Below are positions 9,916 through 28,931 of a stretch of 64,000 nt of DNA, one piece after another. Made by a program: the position numbers and the translations under genes. Under the pieces are notes generated by a model. That model was not told the DNA's origin and did not search any database. It saw nothing but the letters and a program-made list of their open reading frames with translations. Source of the DNA: Dermatophilaceae bacterium Soc4.6. GTDB taxonomy: Bacteria; Actinomycetota; Actinomycetes; Actinomycetales; Dermatophilaceae. The stretch's first letter is position 1; the number at the start of each line of letters is the position of its first letter. The stretch is from contig JAZGVH010000002.1 in the NCBI GenBank assembly GCA_039889245.1, positions 744,001-808,000 on the forward strand. The letters run 5' to 3'.

Positions 9916-10806
9916 GTGAGCAGGGTGGTCGAGGGCGTCGAGGTGCGGCCGCAGGAGCAGTGGCGCCCGGATGAAGCCGCCCACGCGGCCCGCGTCGACG
10001 ACGCCACCTGCGCCCACCGCACGCGGCGCAGCGACGGCCGCGCGCACCCGGTGGAGGACTTCCTCTTCACCTACTACAACCACAAGCCGTCGCACCTGCG
10101 GCGGTGGCACCCGGGTGTCGGCGTCGCCCTCGCCGGGGCCTGCGCCGACGAGCGCGCGACCTGGCGGTTCATGCGCGTCGACGGTGACACCGTCACCCTC
10201 GACACGGACGCGTTCCTCGCCGTCCGGGGCGCCAGCGTGGGCTTCGTGCGCGAGCTGCTCGGCCGCACGCTCGGGCGTCCGGCCCACCTCGGCTGCTTCG
10301 GTCTGCACGAGTGGGCGATGGCCTACCGGCTGCGGCCCGACGAGCAGCGACACGCCGACTGGCCACTGCGCCTCGGCGCCGAGGGCACCGACGCCGTGGT
10401 CGAGAGCCACCCGGTGACCTGCTCGCACATCGACGCCTACCGCTTCTTCACCCCCGAGGCGGTCCCGCTCAACACGCTGCGCCCGACCCGCGAGACCCAG
10501 GCCGCCATGGAGCAGCCGGGCTGCCTCCATGCCGGGATGGACGTCTACAAGTGGGCCTACAAGCTGACCCCGGCCGTGCCCTCCGACCTGGTCATGGACT
10601 GCTTCGACCTGGCCCGAGAGATCCGCGAGCTCGACATGCGGGCGGCGCCCTACGACCTCAGCGAGCTGGGCTACGCGCCCGTGCGCATCGAGACGCGAGA
10701 GGGCAGGGCGGCCTACGTCGCCGCCCAGCGGGCCTTCGCAGAGCGGTCCAATGCGCTGCGTCGGCGTCTGCTCGTCGTGTGCGACACCCTGCTCGCCGTC
10801 GGGTGA
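9916..10806 (+). CDS. Actinobacterial conserved protein, commonly annotated '3-methyladenine DNA glycosylase'
   Basis: 296-aa cytosolic protein. It carries the block HPVEDFLFTYYNHKPSHLRRWHPG and later CSHIDAYRFFTPEAVPLN and LHAGMDVYKWAYKL, which I recognise from an actinobacterial family routinely labelled 3-methyladenine DNA glycosylase. I see no HhH-GPD or AAG active-site motif that would justify that label, so the enzymatic role is unproven. Start GTG is chosen because TACGAT lies 7 nt upstream (leaderless pattern); no ribosome-binding site is present. A second GTG three codons in is an alternative. It is divergent from the FAH-family gene, with two palindromes between them. Confidence 0.7.
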   Translation: MSRVVEGVEVRPQEQWRPDEAAHAARVDDATCAHRTRRSDGRAHPVEDFLFTYYNHKPSHLRRWHPGVGVALAGACADERATWRFMRVDGDTVTLDTDAFLAVRGASVGFVRELLGRTLGRPAHLGCFGLHEWAMAYRLRPDEQRHADWPLRLGAEGTDAVVESHPVTCSHIDAYRFFTPEAVPLNTLRPTRETQAAMEQPGCLHAGMDVYKWAYKLTPAVPSDLVMDCFDLAREIRELDMRAAPYDLSELGYAPVRIETREGRAAYVAAQRAFAERSNALRRRLLVVCDTLLAVG

Positions 10807-10846
10807 CCGCCGACGACGGAACCCGGGCGCCCGCCGGCGGCGGTGG

Positions 10847-11338
10847 TCAGCGGCTCCGCCGACGACCGCGGTGTCGGTCTCGCTCGTGCCCACCGTGGTG
10901 GGTCCCGAGCAGGGTGTAGGCGATGGGGACGAGCAGGAAGAAGTACCAGCTCTTCGTCAGGAAGAACAACAGGGTCGCGACCAGCGGCACGAGCGTCGAC
11001 ATCGCGCCGCGGTTGCGGGCCACCCAGGAGGTCCCCTCCTGCGCCGTCGTCGCCACGGGGGCGGCAGGTGCGACCACCGGATGGCTCGCGGGGGTCGGCC
11101 CGCCGGCCGCCACCCCCGGCTCGCCCGGCAGGTCGGCGAAGAGCACGTCGAGATCACCGCGGGTGGTCGCGGAGAAGGCTGCCGTCGTGCGGCGCTCGTG
11201 CTCCGCGGGGTCGAGCCGCCCGGCCCGCCACTGCTCGCCGAGGCCCGCGATCGCCGCCTGGCGCTCGGCGTCACCGACGCGCAGCGCGGCATACGGGGTG
11301 CGGCTCGTGGTGGGCTGGTGCTCGTCGGCCTGGCTCAT
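10847..11338 (-). CDS. DUF1707 domain membrane protein
   Basis: 163-aa protein. The N-terminal DUF1707 block (LRVGDAERQAAIAGLGEQW...GRLDPAEHERRTTAAFSATTRGDLDVLFADLP) is followed by an Ala/Pro-rich linker and a C-terminal hydrophobic hairpin (TLVPLVATLLFFL; WYFFLLVPIAYTLL), ending in a very basic tail. The family is actinobacterial with no defined function, and this one is probably anchored in the membrane by the C-terminal segment. I start at the second ATG because DUF1707 proteins begin shortly before RVGD; an in-frame start 14 codons earlier is possible. Confidence 0.82.
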   Translation of the reverse strand: MSQADEHQPTTSRTPYAALRVGDAERQAAIAGLGEQWRAGRLDPAEHERRTTAAFSATTRGDLDVLFADLPGEPGVAAGGPTPASHPVVAPAAPVATTAQEGTSWVARNRGAMSTLVPLVATLLFFLTKSWYFFLLVPIAYTLLGTHHGGHERDRHRGRRRSR

Positions 11339-11406
11339 GCGCCCATCCTGACCGGCCCACCGGGCCGGCGCCGATGACACCCGTCACGATCGTGCGCCGA
11401 CACCCG

Positions 11407-13017
11407 TCAGCGCAGCGGCACCCCGTGGCGGTGAAGGCCGTAGGTGATGCCGTCGGCGAGCGCCTGCCACGACGCCTCCACGATGTTGGCGGCGACACCG
11501 AGCGTCTGCCACGACGTCTCGCCGTCGGCGGTCTCGATGAGCACGCGCGTGATCGCGTCGGTGCCGTGCGACGCGTCGAGGATGCGCACGCGGAAGTCGA
11601 TGAGCTCGAGCCGCTCGAGCTCGGGGTAGACCGCGGCGAGCGCCTGGCGCAGCGCGTGGTCGAGGGCGTTCACCGGCCCGTTGCCCTCTCCCGTCGCGAC
11701 CGAGCGGAGGCCGCCGGCGACCACCTTGACCGTCGCCTCCGACAGCGCCTCGTCGCCGCCGCGGGCGTCGGTGATGACCCGCCACGACTCGACGGCGAAG
11801 TAGTCGAGCGAACCGGGGTGCACCGTGCGGCGCAGCAGCAGCTCGAACGACGCGTCGGCGGCGTCGAAGGTGTAGCCCCGGAGCTCGAGGTCCTTGACGT
11901 GCGCGAGCAGGTCGACGACGACCTGCGGCCGGTCCGACAGGTCGATGCCCGACTCTCGTGCCTTCATCTCGATGCTGGCCCGACCGGCCATGTCGGAGAT
12001 CAGCATCCGCATGGTGTTGCCGACTGCGGCCGGGTCGGTGTGCTGGTAGAGGTCCGGGTCGACCTTGAGGGCACTCGCGTGCAGACCGGCCTTGTGCGCG
12101 AAGGCGCTCGCCCCCACATACGGCTGCCGGCTGTAGGGCGGGACCGTGGTCACCTCGCTGATGGCGTGCGCCAGACGGGTCGCGTCGCGCAGGCGCTCGG
12201 GGGGCAGCAGGTCGTGACCGAGCTTGAGCTGCAGGTTGCTCACGACGGTGAGCAGGTCGGCGTTGCCGGTGCGCTCGCCATAGCCGTTGACGGTGCCCTG
12301 CACGTGCGTGGCACCGGCCGCGACCGCAGCCATCGAGTTGGCCACGGCGCACCCGGTGTCGTTGTGGCAGTGGATACCGACGCGCGCCGAGGTGGCGGCG
12401 AGGACGTCGGCGACGACGTCCTCGATCTGGGCTGGGAGCATGCCACCGTTGGTGTCGCAGAGGGCGACCACCTCGGCTCCGGCCTCGGCGGCCACCCGCA
12501 GCGTCTCGAGCGCGTAGGCGCGGTCGGCCCGGTAGCCGTCGAAGAAGTGCTCGGCGTCGAGGAAGACCCGGCGGCCCTCACCCCGCAGGAAGGAGACCGT
12601 GTCGCGGATCATCGCGAGGTTCTCCTCCGCGGTGGTGCGCAGGGCCTCGTGCACGTGTCGCAGGTGGGTCTTGGCGACGAGGGTCACGACCGAGGCCTGC
12701 GAGTCGAGCAGGGCCCGCACCTGGGGGTCGTCGGAGGCCCGGGAGCCGGCTCGCCGGGTGGCGCCGAACGCGGTCAGCGTCGCCGTGCGCAGGTCGAGCT
12801 CGGCGGCGGCGCGCGCGAAGAACTCGGTGTCCTTGGGGTTGGCTCCCGGCCAACCCCCCTCGATGAAGCCCACGCCCAGCTCGTCGAGGTGCCGGGCGAT
12901 CGTCAGCTTGTCGGCGACCGAGAGGTTGAGACCCTCCTGCTGCGCACCGTCGCGCAGGGTCGTGTCGTAGACGTGCAGGCCGGCGAGGGCGGGCGGGGTG
13001 GCCGACGTGACGGACAT
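11407..13017 (-). CDS. cimA: (R)-citramalate synthase
   Basis: Condenses acetyl-CoA with pyruvate to citramalate, the threonine-independent entry to isoleucine. 536 aa. The TIM-barrel start has YDTTLRDGAQQEGLNLS near residue 17, metal ligands are in GIHCHNDTGCAVANS, and NGYGERTGNADL follows; the LeuA-type regulatory domain occupies roughly the last 130 residues. CimA rather than LeuA is supported by length and by the GGWPGANPKD stretch. The ATG lies ~90 nt downstream of a terminator hairpin and a leader peptide, so expression is probably attenuated by charged Leu/Ile/Val tRNA. LeuB, IlvBNC, IlvD and IlvE elsewhere in the window complete most of the pathway. Confidence 0.93.
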   Translation of the reverse strand: MSVTSATPPALAGLHVYDTTLRDGAQQEGLNLSVADKLTIARHLDELGVGFIEGGWPGANPKDTEFFARAAAELDLRTATLTAFGATRRAGSRASDDPQVRALLDSQASVVTLVAKTHLRHVHEALRTTAEENLAMIRDTVSFLRGEGRRVFLDAEHFFDGYRADRAYALETLRVAAEAGAEVVALCDTNGGMLPAQIEDVVADVLAATSARVGIHCHNDTGCAVANSMAAVAAGATHVQGTVNGYGERTGNADLLTVVSNLQLKLGHDLLPPERLRDATRLAHAISEVTTVPPYSRQPYVGASAFAHKAGLHASALKVDPDLYQHTDPAAVGNTMRMLISDMAGRASIEMKARESGIDLSDRPQVVVDLLAHVKDLELRGYTFDAADASFELLLRRTVHPGSLDYFAVESWRVITDARGGDEALSEATVKVVAGGLRSVATGEGNGPVNALDHALRQALAAVYPELERLELIDFRVRILDASHGTDAITRVLIETADGETSWQTLGVAANIVEASWQALADGITYGLHRHGVPLR

Positions 13018-13110
13018 GGGTGCTCTTTCGTCGCGAGAAGGCGCGGGGCGCCCGGGCCGACGAGGCCCTCCCTGTCGCTGCCGCCCGTCCGGGGGTGATG
13101 GCCGGGCAAC

Positions 13111-13138
13111 AAAAAGACCTCCCGGGTCAGGGAGGTCT
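13111..13138 (-). terminator. Attenuator terminator of cimA leader
   Basis: AGACCTCCC and GGGAGGTCT form a perfect 9-bp stem with loop TGACCC, directly followed by TTTTT on the minus strand. It lies between the leader peptide and the cimA ATG, so it can only act as a conditional terminator. A second hairpin (GCGACGAG/CTCGTCGC) lies just upstream at 13141-13162. Confidence 0.8.
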
Positions 13139-13163
13139 GCGCGACGAGGAGGGTCTCGTCGCG

Positions 13164-13208
13164 CTAGCCGATAATGAGCGAGGGGGTCACCCTGGCGGCT
13201 TCGGTCAT
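13164..13208 (-). CDS. cimA leader peptide
   Basis: ATG opens a 14-codon ORF, MTEAARVTPSLIIG, with consecutive CTC-ATT-ATC (Leu-Ile-Ile) codons just before the stop. The stop is followed within two bases by the hairpin that precedes the terminator. ATT is rare in this genome and is conspicuous here. The ribosome-binding site is weak (CGGG); a GTG one codon upstream could also serve. Ribosome stalling at the Leu-Ile-Ile codons when charged tRNA is scarce would permit cimA transcription. Confidence 0.6.
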   Translation of the reverse strand: MTEAARVTPSLIIG

Positions 13209-13343
13209 CACCCGGTCACTGTGCCACGGCTGTGCCACCAGATGGGACGACTGTCTCATCATGTGGTCACTCCGTCATCTCGTGCTGTGCGCGTCCGCGC
13301 CGCCGCTGGCTCTAGCCCTCCGCGACGCGGACGCAGCGACGGG

Positions 13344-14072
13344 TCAGGGTCGTCGCGATGCCACCTCGCCTGCCGCTGCGACGAGGGCCCGGAAGATGCG
13401 AGGGTCGTCGCCGACCTCGGGGTGCCATTGCACCGCCACCCGGAACTGCTGCTGCGGATCCTCGAAGGCCTCGAGGGTGCCGTCGGGGGCCCAGGCGGCC
13501 GGCTGGTAGCCGGGGTGGCTCAGCACCCCCTGGTGGTGGTACGACGGCACGTCGAGACCCCCACCGACGGCCTGCGCGAGCCGGGTGCCGTCAACCGTCG
13601 TCACCGCGTGGGAGGCGTAGGCCCCGGGTGCGCCGGCGTGCTCGACCACCCCGGCCCGGTCAGGCAGGTGCTGCTCGAGCTCGCCCCCGGCGGCAACGGC
13701 CATCACCTGCATGCCCCGGCAGATCCCCAGCACCGGCAGGTCGCGGGTCGCGCTCGCCCGGGCCAGCCGCAGCTCGAGCTCGTCGCGGTCGGGGCGCGGA
13801 GCCTGCACCGCGGGGTGGGGGGTCGCGCCGTACCTCGCGGGGTCGACGTCGGGGCCCCCGGCGATCACCAGCCCATCGAGGCGCCCGAGCACCTCGTGGG
13901 CGAGCGCGTCGTCCGCGTCCTCGCGCGGTGGCACGAGCACCACGACGGCTCCCGCGGCCTCGAGCTGGCGCACGTAGACATACGGCAGCAGGGCCGCGGG
14001 CACCTGCGACCAGACTCCCCACGACGCCGGCTCGACGTAGGTCGTGACCCCGATGACCGGTCGCGTCGTCAC
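13344..14072 (-). CDS. Gamma-glutamyl hydrolase of the PuuD type (class I amidotransferase fold)
   Basis: 242 aa. Hydrolyses a gamma-glutamyl amide to release glutamate plus the amino acid product. The nucleophile Cys is in LGICRGMQVMAV (~119) and the His-Glu pair in VQWHPEVGDD near the end; the N-terminus PVIGVTTYVEP is typical of gamma-glutamyl-GABA hydrolases. GTG start overlaps the SDR stop by 4 nt (GTGA), so translation is coupled. As the last gene of a ligase-dehydrogenase-dehydrogenase chain, it should free glutamate and end the cycle. In an ethanolamine route its substrate would be gamma-glutamylglycine; in a putrescine route, gamma-glutamyl-GABA. Confidence 0.88.
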   Translation of the reverse strand: MTTRPVIGVTTYVEPASWGVWSQVPAALLPYVYVRQLEAAGAVVVLVPPREDADDALAHEVLGRLDGLVIAGGPDVDPARYGATPHPAVQAPRPDRDELELRLARASATRDLPVLGICRGMQVMAVAAGGELEQHLPDRAGVVEHAGAPGAYASHAVTTVDGTRLAQAVGGGLDVPSYHHQGVLSHPGYQPAAWAPDGTLEAFEDPQQQFRVAVQWHPEVGDDPRIFRALVAAAGEVASRRP

Positions 14073-14836
14073 AGCGGCGTGACGTAGGCGCCCGCGATCC
14101 CTCCGTCGACCAGGAACTGCGAGGCGGTGACGAAGCTCGAGTCGTCACTGGCCAGGAAGAGCACCGCCCCCGCGATCTCGTCGGGGTCGGCGAAGCGGCC
14201 CATCGGGATGTGCACGAGCCGTCGCGCCGCCCGCTCGGGGTCGGACGCGAAGAGCTCGCGCAGCAGGGGCGTGTCGACCGGCCCAGGGCACAGCGCGTTG
14301 ACGCGCACCCCCTGCCGGGCGAACTGCACCCCGAGCTCGCGCGACATCGACAGCACCCCACCCTTGCTCGCGGTGTAGGAGATCTGCGAGGTCGCGGCTC
14401 CCATCACCGCCACGAAGGACGCCGTGTTGATGATCGACCCCTTCCCCTGCTCGAGCATGTAGGGCAGGGCCGCCTTGCAGCACAGGTAGACGCTGGTGAG
14501 GTTGACCTCCTGCACCCTGCGCCAGGCCTCGAGGTCGGTCGTGAGGATCGAGTCGTCCTCCGGCGGTGAGATGCCCGCGTTGTTGAAGGCGATGTCGACG
14601 CTGCCCCACGTCTGCCTGGCCGTCGCGAAGAGCGCCTCCACGTCGTCCGGCGAGGTGACGTCGCAGCGCACGTAGGTGCCCGACACCTCCTGCGCGACCT
14701 GCGGCCCGGTCTGCTCGTCGAGGTCGCCCACGACGACGTGGGCCCCCTCCTGCGCGAAGCGTCGGACCGTCGCCAGACCGATGCCGCTGCATCCTCCGGT
14801 GACGACGGCCACGCGGCCCTCGAGGCGTCCTGCCAT
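14069..14836 (-). CDS. Short-chain dehydrogenase/reductase (SDR)
   Basis: 255-aa NAD(P)-dependent Rossmann enzyme. Cofactor motif is VTGGCSGIGLATV (TGxxxGxG); NNAG is at ~88; catalytic Ser is in INTASFVAV and the YxxxK motif is in ISYTASKGG. An Asp after the second strand (VVVGDLDE) favours NAD(H). It sits in the gamma-glutamylation cluster between the aldehyde dehydrogenase and the hydrolase, where its likely task is to oxidise the alcohol of a gamma-glutamylated amino-alcohol. The generic label would be 3-oxoacyl-ACP reductase-like; the context argues for a catabolic role. An AGGGAG lies about 10 nt before the ATG. Confidence 0.87.
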   Translation of the reverse strand: MAGRLEGRVAVVTGGCSGIGLATVRRFAQEGAHVVVGDLDEQTGPQVAQEVSGTYVRCDVTSPDDVEALFATARQTWGSVDIAFNNAGISPPEDDSILTTDLEAWRRVQEVNLTSVYLCCKAALPYMLEQGKGSIINTASFVAVMGAATSQISYTASKGGVLSMSRELGVQFARQGVRVNALCPGPVDTPLLRELFASDPERAARRLVHIPMGRFADPDEIAGAVLFLASDDSSFVTASQFLVDGGIAGAYVTPL

Positions 14837-14875
14837 GTCGTTCGTTCTCCCTGCTCGTGTGGTGCGGATGGTGTC

Positions 14876-16300
14876 TCAGGAATCGGTGGCGATGAAGACG
14901 TTCTTCACCTCGGAGAAGGCCTCGAGCGCGTCGGGCCCGAGCTCGCGCCCGATACCCGAGGCCTTCATCCCCCCGAAGGGCGTGGAGTAGCGCACGGCAC
15001 TGTGCGAGTTGACCGACAGGTTGCCGGCCTCGACGCCACGGGCCACCCGCAGGGCGCGACCGATGTCGCGGGTCCAGATCGACCCCGCCAGCCCGTATGC
15101 CGTGTCGTTCGCCTTCGCGACGGCGTCGGCCTCGTCGTCGAAGGGCAGGACCGCGACGACGGGTCCGAAGACTTCCTCGCGCCACACCCGGTCGCTCGTG
15201 GAGCGGGGCAGCACGACGGTCGCGGGATACCAGAAGCCCTCTCCTGCAGGCGCTTCGCCCCGGAAGGCGATGTCGACCGGCTCGTGCGCGTCCTCGACGA
15301 AGGACCGCACCCGCTCGCGCTGCCCGGCACTGATCAGGGGGCCCATCTCGGTGCTCTCGGCCCCCGGGTCGGCGACGACGACCCCCTTGACGGCCGGCTC
15401 CAGCAGCTCGAGGAACCGGTCGTAGACGCTGGCCTGCACCAGGATCCGGCTGCGGGCGCAGCAGTCCTGCCCGGCGTTGTCGAAGACGCCGTAGGGCGCC
15501 GTGGCCGCGGCCTTCTCGAGGTCGGCGTCGGCGAAGACGATGTTCGCGCTCTTGCCCCCGAGCTCGAGCGTGACCTTCTTGACCTGCTCGGCGGCCCCCC
15601 GCATGATCCCCTGGCCGACCACGGTGCTGCCCGTGAAGCAGACCTTGCGGACCGCCGGGTGCGTGACCAGCCGGTGACCCACGACCGGCCCCGCGCCCGG
15701 CAGCACGGTGAAGACACCCTCGGGGACGCCCGCCTCGAGGGCCAGCTCTCCCAGACGCATCGCGGTGAGGGGGGTGAGCTCGGCGGGCTTCAGCACCACG
15801 GTGTTGCCGGCGGCGAGGGCCGGCGCGAAGCCCCAGCCCGCGACCGGCATGGGGAAGTTCCACGGCACGATGATCCCGACCGTGCCGAGCGGCTCGTGGA
15901 AGGTGAGGTCGATCCCCCCGGCCACGGGGATCTGGCGGCCGAAGTTGCGCTCCGGGGCGGCCGAGAAGTAGGTCAGGACGTCGCGCACGTTGCCCGCCTC
16001 CCAGCGGGCGTTGCCGATGGTGTGCCCGGCGTTGGTCACCTCGAGCTGCGCCAGCTCCTCGAGGTGGGAGTCGACGAGGTCGGCGAAGCGCCGCAGCAGC
16101 CGCCCGCGGTCTGCGGGGGCGACGGCCCGCCAGGCCGGCCCGGCCGCGTCGGCGCGCGCGATCACCGCGTCGGTCTCCTCGAGACCGGCCAGGTGCACCG
16201 AGGTGACGAGGCTCTCGGTCGCGGGGTTGACGACGTCGTACGACGTGCCGCCTGCGGCGTTCGGGCCGGTGCTCCCGCCGGTGGTGGTGGTGGTGCTCAC
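14876..16300 (-). CDS. NAD(P)-dependent aldehyde dehydrogenase
   Basis: 474-aa class 1/2 aldehyde dehydrogenase. PWNFPMP and the general base Glu in LELGGKSANIVF (~257) are present; the nucleophile Cys lies in the run GQDCCARSR (~290), and EEVFGPV is near residue 383. GTG start overlaps the ligase stop (GTGA), so the two are translated together. In the cluster it should oxidise the gamma-glutamylated aldehyde to the acid. The nearest functional analogues are PuuC and the dehydrogenase of actinobacterial gamma-glutamylethanolamide clusters. About 15 N-terminal residues are Thr/Gly-rich and disordered. Confidence 0.9.
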   Translation of the reverse strand: MSTTTTTGGSTGPNAAGGTSYDVVNPATESLVTSVHLAGLEETDAVIARADAAGPAWRAVAPADRGRLLRRFADLVDSHLEELAQLEVTNAGHTIGNARWEAGNVRDVLTYFSAAPERNFGRQIPVAGGIDLTFHEPLGTVGIIVPWNFPMPVAGWGFAPALAAGNTVVLKPAELTPLTAMRLGELALEAGVPEGVFTVLPGAGPVVGHRLVTHPAVRKVCFTGSTVVGQGIMRGAAEQVKKVTLELGGKSANIVFADADLEKAAATAPYGVFDNAGQDCCARSRILVQASVYDRFLELLEPAVKGVVVADPGAESTEMGPLISAGQRERVRSFVEDAHEPVDIAFRGEAPAGEGFWYPATVVLPRSTSDRVWREEVFGPVVAVLPFDDEADAVAKANDTAYGLAGSIWTRDIGRALRVARGVEAGNLSVNSHSAVRYSTPFGGMKASGIGRELGPDALEAFSEVKNVFIATDS

Positions 16301-17661
16301 AGGCGCTCGAACCCCCTGACCCGCTCCCAGTCGGTGACGGTGGCCGAGAAGGCGGCCAGCTCGACGTCGGCGGCGTTGACGTAGTGGTCGACGACGTCGT
16401 CGCCGAAGACCTCACGGGCCAGGGCCGACCCGGCGAACCGGTCGCGGGCGGCAGCCAGGCTGCCCGGCACGTGCGGCTTGTCGCTGACGTAGGCGTTGCC
16501 GACCATCTCCGGCTCGAGTGGCAGCTGCTCCCGGATGCCGTGCAACCCGCCGGCGAGCATGCCGGCGACCGCGAGATAGGGGTTGACGTCGCCCCCGGGC
16601 AACCGGTTCTCCACCCGAAGCCCCGCCCCGTGACCCACCACGCGCAGGGCGCAGGTGCGGTTGTCGCTGCCCCAGGCCACGGCAGTCGGGGCGAACGACC
16701 CGGCCTGGAAGCGCTTGTAGGAGTTCACGTTGGGAGCGTAGAGGAGGGTGAAGTCCTGCATGGTGGCCTGGACTCCAGCGATGAAGTGCTCGAACATGGC
16801 ACTGCGCCCGCCCTCACGCTGCTCGTCGGCGAAGACCATCGAGCCGTCGACGCCCCGCAGCGACAGGTGGATGTGGCAGGAGTTGCCCTCGCGCTGGTCG
16901 TACTTCGCCATGAAGGTCAGTGACTGGCCGTGCCTGGCGGCGAGCTCCTTCGCGGCCGTCTTGTAGATCACGTGGTTGTCGCAGGTGCGCACGACCTCGT
17001 CGTACTTGAAGGCGATCTCGTGCTGGCCGAGGTTGCACTCCCCCTTGGCGCTCTCGACCGTGACACCGGCGGCGTACATCTCGTTGCGGATCTCGCGGAG
17101 CAGGGGCTCGACCTTCGTGCCACCGAGGATCGAGTAGTCGACGTTGTAGCGGTTGGCACCGGTGAGCCCGTGGTACCTCCGGTCCCAGGCCTGCTCGTAG
17201 GTGTCCTCGAAGAGGATGAACTCGAGCTCGGTGCCGGCGTGGGCGACGGTCCCGAGCGCCGCCGCTGCGTCCACCTGCGCCTTGAGCACCGAGCGCGGCG
17301 ACGGCCGCACCGGCCCGCTCCCGTCGAGCCACGACAGGTCGCACTGCACGGTGGCGGAGTAGGGCTGCCCGGGGGTGCGGCGCAGGGTCGTGAGGTCGAG
17401 GTCGAACATCATGTCGCCGTAACCCTTCTCCCAGGACGAGATCGCGTAGCCGTCGACGGTGTTCATGTCCACGTCGACCGCGAGCAGGTAGTTGCATCCC
17501 TCGGTGCCGTGCGGCAGGACGCTGTCGAGGAAGAACGCCCCGTGGATGCGCTTGCCCTGCAGACGGCCCTGCACGTCGGTGAAGGCGACGACGACCGTGT
17601 CGACCGCGCCGGACTCGATGTCGGTGCGTAGCTGACCCAGCGTCAGCAGTTGGTGCGGCAT
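16297..17661 (-). CDS. Gamma-glutamyl-amine ligase, glutamine synthetase-like (GlnA3/GlnA4/PuuA type)
   Basis: ATP-dependent ligase joining glutamate to an amine. 454 aa, shorter than housekeeping GlnA. Glutamine synthetase catalytic blocks are present (GTELEFILFED, SAKGECNLGQHE, GNSCHIHLSL, NRLPGGDVNPYLA). The adenylylation-loop Tyr of GlnA type I is not seen; the C-terminus (VTDWERVRGFERL) is the PuuA-like form. I start at the ATG preceded by AGGAG; an in-frame ATG 13 codons upstream overlaps the GntR stop. Actinobacterial relatives act on polyamines (GlnA3) or ethanolamine (GlnA4). The neighbouring SDR favours ethanolamine; this is inference. Confidence 0.87.
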   Translation of the reverse strand: MPHQLLTLGQLRTDIESGAVDTVVVAFTDVQGRLQGKRIHGAFFLDSVLPHGTEGCNYLLAVDVDMNTVDGYAISSWEKGYGDMMFDLDLTTLRRTPGQPYSATVQCDLSWLDGSGPVRPSPRSVLKAQVDAAAALGTVAHAGTELEFILFEDTYEQAWDRRYHGLTGANRYNVDYSILGGTKVEPLLREIRNEMYAAGVTVESAKGECNLGQHEIAFKYDEVVRTCDNHVIYKTAAKELAARHGQSLTFMAKYDQREGNSCHIHLSLRGVDGSMVFADEQREGGRSAMFEHFIAGVQATMQDFTLLYAPNVNSYKRFQAGSFAPTAVAWGSDNRTCALRVVGHGAGLRVENRLPGGDVNPYLAVAGMLAGGLHGIREQLPLEPEMVGNAYVSDKPHVPGSLAAARDRFAGSALAREVFGDDVVDHYVNAADVELAAFSATVTDWERVRGFERL

Positions 17662-17696
17662 GGAGGGCTCCTGGGGGTGGGGTGGGGGAAGGGGGG

Positions 17697-18458
17697 TCAT
17701 CCGAGCAGCCCGCGCAGCAGGGCGGACGTTGCGTCGCAGTGCTCCTCCATCGCCGTCCTGGCGGCCTCGGCATCGGCGGCGAGGACGGCGTCGACGACCT
17801 GCTGGTGCTGGGCGTCGGAGTGGGCGATGTTGCGGGGCAGCACAGGGATCGCCGTCAGGAGCTCGTGCAGCGCGGCCTGGGCCCGGGTGACGGCCTCGAT
17901 GAGCATCGGTGAGCCCGAGAGGGTGGCGACGGCCAGGTGCAGGCGGGAGTCGGCCAGCCGGTGGGCGGTGGGCTCGCTGGAGCGGGCCGTCTCCTGCAGC
18001 GCCTCGCAGAGCCAGCCCCGCTGGTCGGCCGACAGCGGCTGACGGGCGGCGAGGGCGGCGGCACCGGGCTCGACGACGCGACGGAACTCCAGGGCGTCGG
18101 CGAGCGCCGCTCCACGCCGCCCGACGATGCCACCGGCCGGCCGGTGGGAGGCGATGTGCGGCCCCTCGTAGACCACCACGCTGCCACCTCCCCGACCTCG
18201 TCTCGTCGTCACCAGGCCCGACTGCCGCAGCGCCGCGATGGCCTCGCGCAGGGTGACCCGGCTGACCCCGAGCCGCTCGGCCAGCTCGCGCTCCGGGGGC
18301 AGCTGTTCCCCGCGGGCGAAGACGCCCAGCCGCACCGCGGTCGCCAGCTGCTCGACCGTGGACTCGAAGGTGTTGGTCGTGACCGGCCGCAGGACGGCGT
18401 CGGAGAGCCAGTGCCCGGCCGGGCCTCCCGACCCGTCGACCGCCTGCAGGTGCGTCAT
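17697..18458 (-). CDS. GntR-family (FadR/FCD) transcriptional regulator
   Basis: 253-aa DNA-binding repressor. The winged helix spans about residues 35-95 (EQLPPERELAERLGVSRVTLREAIAALRQ, split by the turn), followed by an all-helical FCD ligand domain with R-D/H metal-site features (EFRRVVEPG, DAQHQQVVDAV). Its ATG overlaps the permease stop by 4 nt (ATGA), so regulator and permease are coupled. It probably senses the amine substrate or a product and controls this cluster. Its operator is not identified; a GTGAC-N6-GTCAC dyad upstream of the permease is one candidate. Confidence 0.88.
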   Translation of the reverse strand: MTHLQAVDGSGGPAGHWLSDAVLRPVTTNTFESTVEQLATAVRLGVFARGEQLPPERELAERLGVSRVTLREAIAALRQSGLVTTRRGRGGGSVVVYEGPHIASHRPAGGIVGRRGAALADALEFRRVVEPGAAALAARQPLSADQRGWLCEALQETARSSEPTAHRLADSRLHLAVATLSGSPMLIEAVTRAQAALHELLTAIPVLPRNIAHSDAQHQQVVDAVLAADAEAARTAMEEHCDATSALLRGLLG

Positions 18459-19993
18459 CCCAGCAGCTTCTCCGCCGGCATGGTGTCGTGGCCCGCGGGG
18501 ACCTCGCGCATGAAGTGGTGACGCCCGACGAGCACCCACATCACTGCAGCGAAGAGGAGGACGACGAGGACGGCGATCGGGGCGTAGTTGAAGGTGTCGT
18601 CACCGAACGTGCCCGGGGCGTAGGCCGGCAGCATGAAGAGGATGACGATGAAGACGACCCAGACGATGGCGACCCACCCGATGACCGTGCTCCAGCGGCC
18701 GAGGGTCCACGGTCCGTCGCGGAACTCGGGGTTGAGCCGGCGCAGGAGGATCGGCGCGGCATACGCGATGTAGAGCCCGATGACGGCGATGGACGTGACC
18801 GCGAAGAAGGCGACCGTCGTCTTGAGCGCGGGCAGCGTGAGCACGATCGAGCAGCCAACGCACAGCCAGATCGAGTTGGTGGGGGTGCCCGAGCGGGGGT
18901 TGACCTGGGCCCACAGACGCGACCCCGGGAGGGCGCCGTCGCGCGAGAACGCATACGACATGCGGGAGTTCGCGGTCACCGACGCCATACCGCAGAAGAA
19001 CTGGGCGACGGCGCAGATGAGCAGCAGGATCTTGCCCAGGGAGCTGCCAGCGGCGTCGATGAAGATCTGCGCCGGGGGGAGGCCGGTCGCCGAGCCGCGC
19101 TCGGCGGCGTAGTCCTGAATGGCCGCCGTGACGGCGATGAGCAGCACCCAGCCGGCGATGATCGAGACCCACACGGAGCGCACGATGCCCTTGGGTGCCT
19201 CGACGGCGGCCCCCTTGGTCTCCTCGGCGATGTGGGCCGACGCGTCGTAGCCGGTGAAGGTGTACTGCGCGAGCAGGAGCCCGATGAGGAAGACGTAGAC
19301 CGGGTTGGTGAAGCCCGTCTCGTTGGCGGTCGAGGTGAAGGTCCAGCTGATCGACTGGTGCTTGTCGGGCACCACGGCCAGGACCACCACGATCACCGCG
19401 ACCCCACCCAGGTGCCACCAGGCGCTGATGTTGGACAGCAGGCGCACGAGGTTGACGCCGAAGGTGTTGAGCAGACCGTGCAGGCCGATGATGATCACGA
19501 AGGCGACGAAGGTGCTCGTCAGCGAGACCTCGAGGCCGAAGACGAGGTTGAGCAGGGCCATCCACGTGATGGCCGCGCCGTAGTCGATCGCCGCCGTGAC
19601 GGCGACCTCACCGAGGAAGTTGAACCACCCGACGTACCACGCCCAGTGGCGCTTGCCGCGCACGGCGAGCCGGCCGGCCCAGAAGTAGAGCCCGCCCGCT
19701 GTGGGGTAGGACGAGCAGATCTCCGCCATCGCCAGAGCGACGCAGAGCACGAAGACGCCGACGAGTGGCCAGCCGAGCGTGATGGCCATCGGCCCGCCGG
19801 CGTCCATCCCGAGGTAGAAGGTCGTGATGCAGCCGGAGAGGACGGAGATGATGGAGAAGGAGACGGCGAAGTTGGAGAAGCCGCTCATCCCGCGGTGGAG
19901 CTCTTGCTTGTAGCCGAGGGCGGCGAGGGTGGCCTCGTCGTCGTGCTCGGGCCGGGAGGAGTCGGAGGGTGCGGTGCTGGGGGTCGCGCTCAC
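18455..19993 (-). CDS. APC amino acid/amine permease (GabP/ACT-like)
   Basis: 512-aa membrane transporter with twelve predicted helices. It shows the family's YKQELHRGMSGFSNFAVSFS entry, SSYPTAGGLYFWAGRLA and GYDASAHIAEET motifs, typical of the bacterial and fungal GABA/choline-type permease branch. It is the first gene of the leftward cluster and is translationally coupled to the GntR gene, so it most likely imports the amine that is gamma-glutamylated downstream. Choline/ethanolamine-like or GABA substrates are equally compatible with the sequence. Confidence 0.87.
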   Translation of the reverse strand: MSATPSTAPSDSSRPEHDDEATLAALGYKQELHRGMSGFSNFAVSFSIISVLSGCITTFYLGMDAGGPMAITLGWPLVGVFVLCVALAMAEICSSYPTAGGLYFWAGRLAVRGKRHWAWYVGWFNFLGEVAVTAAIDYGAAITWMALLNLVFGLEVSLTSTFVAFVIIIGLHGLLNTFGVNLVRLLSNISAWWHLGGVAVIVVVLAVVPDKHQSISWTFTSTANETGFTNPVYVFLIGLLLAQYTFTGYDASAHIAEETKGAAVEAPKGIVRSVWVSIIAGWVLLIAVTAAIQDYAAERGSATGLPPAQIFIDAAGSSLGKILLLICAVAQFFCGMASVTANSRMSYAFSRDGALPGSRLWAQVNPRSGTPTNSIWLCVGCSIVLTLPALKTTVAFFAVTSIAVIGLYIAYAAPILLRRLNPEFRDGPWTLGRWSTVIGWVAIVWVVFIVILFMLPAYAPGTFGDDTFNYAPIAVLVVLLFAAVMWVLVGRHHFMREVPAGHDTMPAEKLLG

Positions 19994-25278: not shown

Positions 25279-28751
<3,473 letters not shown>

Positions 28752-28828
28752 GGTTGTCACCTTCGTGTCGTGCGGTCGTCTCTGACGGCGGTGCTGGCTC
28801 TGACGGCGGATCGGGTGGTCGCGCCCAC

Positions 28829-28851
28829 AAAAAAGCCCTTCGGTCCGAAGG
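28829..28851 (-). terminator. Attenuator terminator of ilvB leader
   Basis: CCTTCGG-A-CCGAAGG followed by GCTTTTTT on the minus strand. It lies between the leader peptide and the ilvB start. The arms pair through at least five G/C-rich pairs with loop GGACC. Its place before the coding region makes it a conditional terminator. Confidence 0.75.
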
Positions 28852-28895
28852 AGGACGGAAGGGAGGCGCGTCGGGCTCGGGTCGGTGGACCGTCG

Positions 28896-28931
28896 TCAGA
28901 CGCGCTGGAGAACTACGAGAAGTCGTGCCAC
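28896..28931 (-). CDS. ilvB leader peptide
   Basis: GTG opens an 11-codon ORF, MARLLVVLQRV, stopping at TGA. Six of eleven residues are Leu or Val, with the run CTT-CTC-GTA-GTT-CTC. CTT, GTA and GTT are rare codons in this genome, which makes chance unlikely and stalling more plausible. GGGA precedes the start by 2 nt. The terminator follows 45 nt downstream, as in known branched-chain amino acid attenuators. Confidence 0.65.
   Translation of the reverse strand: MARLLVVLQRV

Follow-up and report, generated by a model that had tools for sequence, protein, structure and literature searches.

The window that was analyzed, a 64,000-nucleotide stretch of contig JAZGVH010000002.1 of Dermatophilaceae bacterium Soc4.6, carries on its minus strand the citramalate synthase gene cimA (11407-13017; TIGR00977, 648 bits against a cut-off of 450). 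Upstream on the same strand, a leader ORF (13164-13211) reads GTG-ATG-ACC-GAA-GCC-GCC-AGG-GTG-ACC-CCC-TCG-CTC-ATT-ATC-GGC-TAG from 13211 to 13164. It has 15 codons when counted from the GTG at 13211 and 14 sense codons when counted from the ATG at 13208, in which case it encodes MTEAARVTPSLIIG* (MTEAARVTPS-L-I-I-G, the asterisk standing for the stop codon, TAG, at 13166-13164). Its 3' end, CTC-ATT-ATC-GGC-TAG, contains the putative sensor codons CTC-ATT-ATC (Leu-Ile-Ile, 13170-13178). The last base of the stop codon (13164) is at the same time the first base of a 10-bp hairpin, P1 (13139-13164, GCGCGACGAG[ACCCTC]CTCGTCGCGC), which is backed by folding and covariation and is presumably the element under ribosome control. 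P1 is followed with zero spacer (13139/13138) by an intrinsic terminator, P2 (13110-13138), consisting of a 9-bp stem (13138-13115, AGACCTCCC[TGACCC]GGGAGGTCT) and a U-tract with T's to 13111. A terminator scan returned this single site (9 pairs, six of them G-C) against a shuffle mean of 0.0 (sd 0.2), and the predicted fold of 13230-13090 (141 nt) has an energy of -70.2 kcal/mol (z = -5.6), a value equaled by none of 200 shuffles. No Rfam family, T-box included, was matched at E up to 1 in window positions 10000-16000 and five leader loci, and at gathering thresholds the whole window yielded only two tRNAs.

An earlier note on this DNA had described a 14-codon ORF ending in Leu-Ile-Ile codons and followed by a hairpin, then a 9-bp terminator stem with a T-run, all in front of cimA. 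ORF, codons and hairpin are all present on the minus strand, the terminator is P2 and unique in the scan, and the identity of the downstream gene is borne out by its TIGR00977 score. The length of 14 codons holds from the ATG, but the in-frame GTG one codon 5' of it is the likelier start, judging by its position behind the -10-like hexamer CACAGT (13218-13223, minus strand). Since this GTG lies exactly 6 nt past CACAGT, the putative leader promoter, transcription and translation probably both begin there; a promoter scan gave no sigma-70-type match at the CACAGT site. Across the parsed leaders of all classes, an A....T motif is located 5-9 nt before the leader start in 152/158 cases against 14-31/158 at shifted positions, the 152 being somewhat inflated because the parser used the motif as a tie-breaker among in-frame starts; at 6-7 nt before the start it occurs in 131/158 leaders against 2-22 at shifted positions. 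As the start codon thus mostly lies 6-8 nt past a -10-like box, the cimA leader is probably leaderless or near-leaderless, judged on the motif only. Such a start would fit the ilv, leu and trp leaders of Streptomyces lividans, which are reported as leaderless in the excerpted text of PMC8079986.

The surroundings of the element offer further observations. Upstream of cimA, window positions 13344-18539 (minus strand) hold what looks by eye like the genes of a gamma-glutamyl-polyamine pathway (amidotransferase, SDR, aldehyde dehydrogenase, glutamine-synthetase-like; the SDR alone scores above its family cut-off) beside a GntR/FadR-like regulator. Between terminator and cimA, a C-rich stretch, CCGGGCCACCCACACCCGG, recurs shortly after P2 in the loci L009 and L010 of relatives, with a similar one in L007.

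Among 19 relatives searched, the genome itself included, ten carry a full-length CimA ortholog (at least 72% identity), while in the other nine CimA matches are weak, distant paralogs or absent. All ten orthologs keep the leader, with Ile codons, a stop at P1, P1, P2 and U-tract. Conservation of leader ORF and terminator in close relatives was the test that the earlier note had set for its reading, and the element passes it here as well as in the wider class. For the wider searches we built a covariance model, R1, trained on 41 cimA leaders and no others; it matches the leaders of all ten relatives, all of which are in the training set. Within the best 80 cimA loci of the named collection, the element was seen by eye in 32 of the first 51, and R1 matched 34 of the 74 loci searched, including L083 (Ilumatobacteraceae) and L085 (Acidimicrobiaceae); the 45 matches of this search comprise the 41 training sequences, the window (a duplicate of L001) and others. 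In a class sample of 118 genomes, CimA was matched in 92 with an E-value no higher than 1e-100, the family cut-off being exceeded in 90, and 68 of these 92 show an R1 match on the same strand no more than 600 nt upstream of cimA. A phylum-wide sample gave R1 matches in 25/100 genomes. Class and phylum searches were run with stricter filters, so both counts are lower bounds. Outside the class, 12 of 16 R1 loci lie before ilvB, one before a leuA homolog (L269) and one before a cimA homolog with 54% identity (L280); for the two others, L270 and L276, no downstream gene was assigned.

Twenty-four of the 92 cimA genes in the class sample lack an upstream R1 match. A rescan of 22 of these loci without filters was negative save for a 26-nt partial match at L219 (E 0.24); as to the other two, the element of genome G030 sits on another contig (L156, broken contig) and the CimA match of G092 begins at a contig edge. 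In nine no-match loci (L206, L209, L210, L213, L214, L216, L221, L261, L262) cimA stands, by eye, right behind an ilvE-like gene, so that a private leader is not expected there. Family f24 is a separate case: five of its seven loci (L203, L208, L212, L215, L218) share, by eye, another stem, GCGCG, upstream of cimA, which has neither U-tract nor tandem Ile codons and is perhaps a degenerate or translation-level version. Taken over the searches, the leader element is conserved in most of the sampled actinobacteria and more widely than first stated, and this conservation makes a chance origin untenable.

The sensor codons and the stems were compared over 108 parsed cimA leaders, not all of them independent, as some species seem to be present in two collections. 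The parser allowed P1 to end at most 7 nt before P2 and preferred the ORF richest in Ile, Leu or Val, a preference that raises the sum of the three without affecting the split among them. One cimA locus (L149) and one leuS locus (L179) were left unparsed, and no ORF was obtained from L157 and L192. Two Ile codons occur in the sensor region of 71 cimA leaders, three in 26, four in one, one in nine and none in one, which amounts to at least two in 98/108 and at least one in 107/108; the single zero-Ile leader according to the parser, L248, reads MTTTRIIA* by eye. Isoleucine accounts for 229/344 residues of the sensor window, encoded by 139 ATT and 90 ATC; either codon is used, then, but the residue stays the same. 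In 41 loci, ATT makes up 45/96 of the leader Ile codons against 20/665 in the CimA genes, and in 38/41 the leader uses ATT for a larger part of its Ile codons than the gene does. A few leaders deviate: Ile-Thr or Ile-Thr-Thr replaces Ile-Ile in L223, L228, L143, L232 and L235 (e.g., MSTACCITT* and MASTCITT*), threonine being the other isoleucine precursor, while loci of genus f25, g38 (L153, L226, L229, L233, L234, L242, L244) have leaders like MLSFAMIIGSRRAGPQ* and very long P1 loops. The ilvB leader peptide of this genus equals that of S. lividans, so it is probably Streptomyces.

In the alignment of the 41 leaders, 93.7% of the P1 and P2 cells are paired against 82.5% in shuffled alignments, two-sided changes number 73 against 21.6, and the covariation score is 0.373 against 0.170 when shuffled and at most 0.107 when slid. 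Two of the five covariation measures are not clearly above shuffles, namely the pairs with a two-sided change (8 against 6.2; 53/500) and the further pair types (22 against 21.1; 189/500). The outer five P1 pairs are nearly constant, with four of five invariant in the 41 leaders, and as they hardly vary they are uninformative either way on pairing. In the more distant loci L083, L085, L268 and L271 the sequence of P1 differs with pairing kept, as judged by eye.

The same scaffold is found before other genes as well. The 50 non-cimA matches of R1 in the class sample (same 600-nt rule) lie before ilvB (30), leuS (13) and leuA (two), the remaining five being cimA on a split contig, L196, L154, L178 (contig end) and L197 (probably a false match). 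Loci were labeled leuS by tblastn against a single reference, at about 39-50% identity for several of them, and leuA by an HMM (L158) or by resemblance (L161). In the relatives, ten non-cimA matches comprise six ilvB, three leuS and one that is probably false (L125). Trained on cimA leaders only, R1 thus picks up leaders of ilvB as well, among them MRTRILVLGKRVG* in four genomes (L193, L198-L200). The codons change along with the gene: the sensor window of ilvB leaders holds 51 Val, 48 Leu and 5 Ile of 106 residues (Val and Leu together 99/106) and that of leuS leaders 36 Leu of 52, the latter leaders reading like MRTGLLLTGPR*. That the sensor codons track the downstream pathway on one scaffold supports ribosome-mediated attenuation, and no other single argument speaks as strongly for translation of the sensor codons being what is sensed.

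The window itself appears to contain an ilvB case. Its ilvB gene for the large subunit of acetolactate synthase (26907-28760, minus strand; TIGR00118, 767.7 bits, cut-off 538) is preceded on the same strand by a leader ORF, MARLLVVLQRV* (28896-28931; Leu-Leu-Val-Val-Leu, by eye), a P1 stem GCGCGTC/GACGCGC (28905-28866) and a terminator (about 28865-28829), the stems being read by eye and the terminator also found by the scan (28829-28905 in all). This leader is not among the R1 matches, so its identification rests on reading by eye; over 28829-28931 one also reads TTGACA as a -35 and a -10-like CACGGT 6 nt before the GTG of the leader. Three further cases stand apart. L154 (1592-1566, minus strand) has P1, P2 and a leader peptide with Ile codons, MFTPRIII*, in front of a small ORF that weakly matches an ACT domain (18.3 bits, cut-off 27) and possibly encodes an isoleucine-controlled regulatory protein; cimA of the same genome has its own leader. 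At L196 (about 101-199), a weaker R1 match (E 0.0044) with the leader MQRHLMAITWARD*, read by eye, lies before a threonine ammonia-lyase homolog that scores below family cut-offs, and in that genome, whose cimA is without the element, the other entry enzyme to isoleucine may carry the attenuator. Finally, L158 and L161 have leuA behind a P1-P2 terminator leader with Leu codons (MTNLLLT* and MKHLLLIESARH*, respectively), both in genomes without a TIGR00977 match.

In this study, we propose that the element is a ribosome-mediated, isoleucine-responsive transcription attenuator of cimA, a reading already advanced in the earlier note, which we hold with good though not full confidence and which gains support from the conservation, the synonymous Ile codons, the covarying stems and the switch of codons with the pathway. 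The parts, their conservation, the match of codons to pathway and the geometry are read from the sequence; from them we infer translation of the leader, the response to isoleucine and the last switching step. Transcription would begin on the leader start codon or close beside it, and in that case the ribosome would load straight onto a leaderless or nearly leaderless ORF. With ample charged tRNA-Ile the ribosome would reach the stop codon, which lies at the foot of P1, and cover the P1 5' arm; P2 would fold and transcription would end ahead of cimA. Under isoleucine shortage the ribosome would stall on the tandem Ile codons and leave P1 free, a free P1 would prevent P2 from closing and cimA would be transcribed. 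Consequently, cimA would probably be off when isoleucine is plentiful. A geometric calculation, which assumes that the ribosome covers 12 nt downstream of the first A-site base, is consistent with this course: with the A-site on the stop codon the P1 5' arm is masked by 99% on average over the 108 cimA leaders (at least 80% in 106), with the A-site on the first Ile codon by 11% and on the last by 45%. As masking differs with ribosome position, P1 would be the structure whose folding depends on it, with the polarity of known attenuators. Secondary-structure energies do not explain the switch, since by folding alone P2 is predicted to form either way, with a probability of 0.95 with P1 exposed and 0.94 with P1 masked.

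For the last step, we favor a model in which P1 touches the foot of P2 and would thereby keep the last P2 pairs open in the polymerase exit channel. The linker between P1 and P2 is at most 1 nt in 101/108 cimA, 33/36 ilvB and 10/14 leuS leaders (the parser allowed -1 to about 6), and the two hairpins have no base in common in 99/108 cimA leaders against 84/108 in a control with shuffled upstream bases. In C. glutamicum ilvBNC, antiterminator and terminator are described as sharing only three boundary bases at which mutations matter (PMC11857589, excerpt), which by analogy would give the contact step partial support. The general form of this proposal, that the whole family switches by contact and not by strand exchange, with an abutting P1 blocking P2 closure, ribosome position deciding on P1 folding and specificity being modular, is nevertheless rather unlikely at present, since the pairing seen in the window's clade led us to rate it lower and its strand-sharing rival higher. 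In that clade, the apex of P1 is GAGACC(C)TCC-like; it looks like the 5' arm of P2 and is able to form a duplex with the 3' arm. Taking the apex as the loop plus three stem bases on each side, the duplex beats shuffled apexes at z -1.4 to -3.1 in seven of eight hand-picked loci, which are related and so not independent; the window's own duplex reaches -11.5 kcal/mol (z -1.5). A strand-sharing antiterminator, made of the P1 apex and the terminator 3' arm at least in the window's clade and of some other pairing or a pseudoknot elsewhere, is thus a possibility to be taken seriously, if still short of likely. The Corynebacterium ilvB-II element is drawn so in the excerpted PMC10272879, the C. glutamicum hairpins have three bases in common (PMC11857589, likewise in excerpt), and P1 and P2 share one base in 11/36 ilvB leaders, whereas 4/36 share any in a shuffled control. 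Yet apex-arm pairing is not general: over the 108 cimA leaders its mean z is -0.26 (sem 0.11) with three flanking bases, 13/108 being at -1.5 or lower, and the effect is gone with no flanking bases (-0.09) or five (0.02). In swaps between leaders, P1 loops proved equally good partners of the P2 3' arm in 109/500 and apexes with three flanking bases in 11/200, and ilvB and leuS leaders show no apex-arm pairing on average. Single loci elsewhere reach loop-arm z values of about -1.5 to -2.3 (L059, L064, L070, L072), and the Amycolatopsis loci L065, L066, L068, L069 and L071 have a loop structure of their own (z -1.3 to -2.5). Structures forbidden to contain P2 are weaker than dinucleotide shuffles in cimA leaders (z +0.60 for n 41, with L033 omitted after it had been misparsed in the first loop-arm test; +0.33 for n 108) and indistinguishable from them in ilvB (0.07, sem 0.17) and leuS (0.30, sem 0.28) leaders; together with the 99/108 cimA leaders lacking a shared base, this speaks against strand sharing. 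Folds with the P1 5' arm masked contained no antiterminator, the outward extension of P1 into P2 was negative across the class, and so was the sequestering of the P2 5' arm before its 3' arm exists (arm 0.89 unpaired against 0.58). A ribosome at the stop codon would moreover free the 3' side of P1 and leave much of the apex exposed, so the polarity of apex-arm pairing is not obviously right. The remark in the earlier note that an antiterminator is not obvious by eye was therefore justified: by loop-arm pairing, masked folds, P2-forbidden folds, P1 extension and arm sequestration, none that shares a strand is conserved across the class, though the window's clade has its candidate. A literature search on upstream hairpins and steric antitermination gave a single paper, on a protein antiterminator domain.

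Returning to the attenuator as a whole, if a protein or RNA polymerase pausing controlled P1 and the Ile codons were not the sensor, this could account for outer P1 pairs that are more constant than pairing alone needs; for the ilvB leader of S. coelicolor, changes of the sensor codons are reported, as cited in the excerpted PMC1262725, to be without effect. Such control is improbable, given that one scaffold carries different sensor codons depending on the downstream pathway, that P1 changes in sequence with pairing kept in the four distant loci, and that in the Mycobacterium tuberculosis ilvB1 leader the change of LVVI to AAAA abolishes induction (PMC13236596, excerpt). The upstream amidotransferase-like ORF (13344-14072) is codirectional and about 200 nt separate its end from P2, which would allow P2 to be its ordinary terminator and the leader ORF to be coincidental. 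This explanation is hardly credible, as it is already contradicted by the conservation, the two or more Ile codons beside P1 in 98/108 leaders, the -10-like box and sensor codons that differ according to the downstream gene.

Placed among known systems, the cimA element is by its sequence features a member of the actinobacterial P1-P2 leader-peptide family of the ilvB/leuS type, with which it has in common the pathway codons beside P1, the order of P1 and P2, the kinship to ilvB through R1 and a leaderless start (by motif only). Attenuators or leader peptides before actinobacterial ilvB, leuS and trp were proposed in 2005, components often being missing (PMC1262725, this and the following sources being drawn on in excerpt). 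In layout it resembles the ilvB attenuators of Streptomyces (IlvL, MRTRILVLGKRVG*, reported as leaderless in S. lividans; PMC8079986) and Mycobacterium (ilvB1), which equally consist of a short ORF with branched-chain codons, a hairpin and an intrinsic terminator, and in the model proposed for M. tuberculosis ilvB1 the antiterminator is masked when the ribosome sits at the stop codon (PMC13236596). The cimA leaders differ in carrying Ile-Ile where ilvB leaders carry Ile-Leu-Val-Leu and in preceding the gene of the enzyme that opens the citramalate route to isoleucine. The Streptomyces leuS leader (LeuL2, MRAVRLLLSEPR*; PMC1262725, PMC8079986) has the same layout, but with Leu codons and a tRNA-synthetase gene as target. 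Similar to Corynebacterium ilvB-II and C. glutamicum ilvBNC, P1 precedes P2, a branched-chain uORF is present and ribosome position would decide (PMC10272879, PMC11857589), and the candidate apex-arm pairing of the window's clade adds to the likeness with ilvB-II; the Corynebacterium antiterminator, however, shares bases with the terminator, whereas P1 and P2 of cimA abut. The LEU element of leuA likewise has a leucine leader ORF, before a homologous enzyme gene, yet the published description is of a pseudoknot whose base stem contains the ribosome-binding site (PMC1262725), in contrast to the P1-P2 terminators at the leuA loci L158 and L161. Reports of a cimA attenuator were not found among papers screened by title and beginning of the abstract, mostly from outside subscription journals (an excerpt of PMC12452182 included); the available text of PMC1262725 makes no mention of cimA, and in that of PMC11109978 neither cimA nor citramalate occurs.

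The E. coli trp, his and ilv attenuators combine control codons, masking at the stop codon and a terminator, and their antiterminator uses one terminator strand. The first three are found in the cimA leader, where masking is predicted from geometry; an antiterminator that shares a strand with the terminator is not conserved over the class, which is why the cimA element is not filed as trp-type. The cimA gene of S. coelicolor is SCO5529.

In summary, what is new is cimA as a target and the modular use of codons. The entry enzyme of the citramalate route is added to the genes that are probably under attenuation, across much of an actinobacterial class. If the contact reading is true, a codon swap would retarget one scaffold, with Ile for cimA, Ile-Leu-Val for ilvB and Leu for leuS and leuA. 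The leaders form a large natural set in which codons are swapped on one scaffold, and the working of actinobacterial branched-chain leaders, for which codon-mutation results conflict and antiterminators are missing, thus becomes directly testable.
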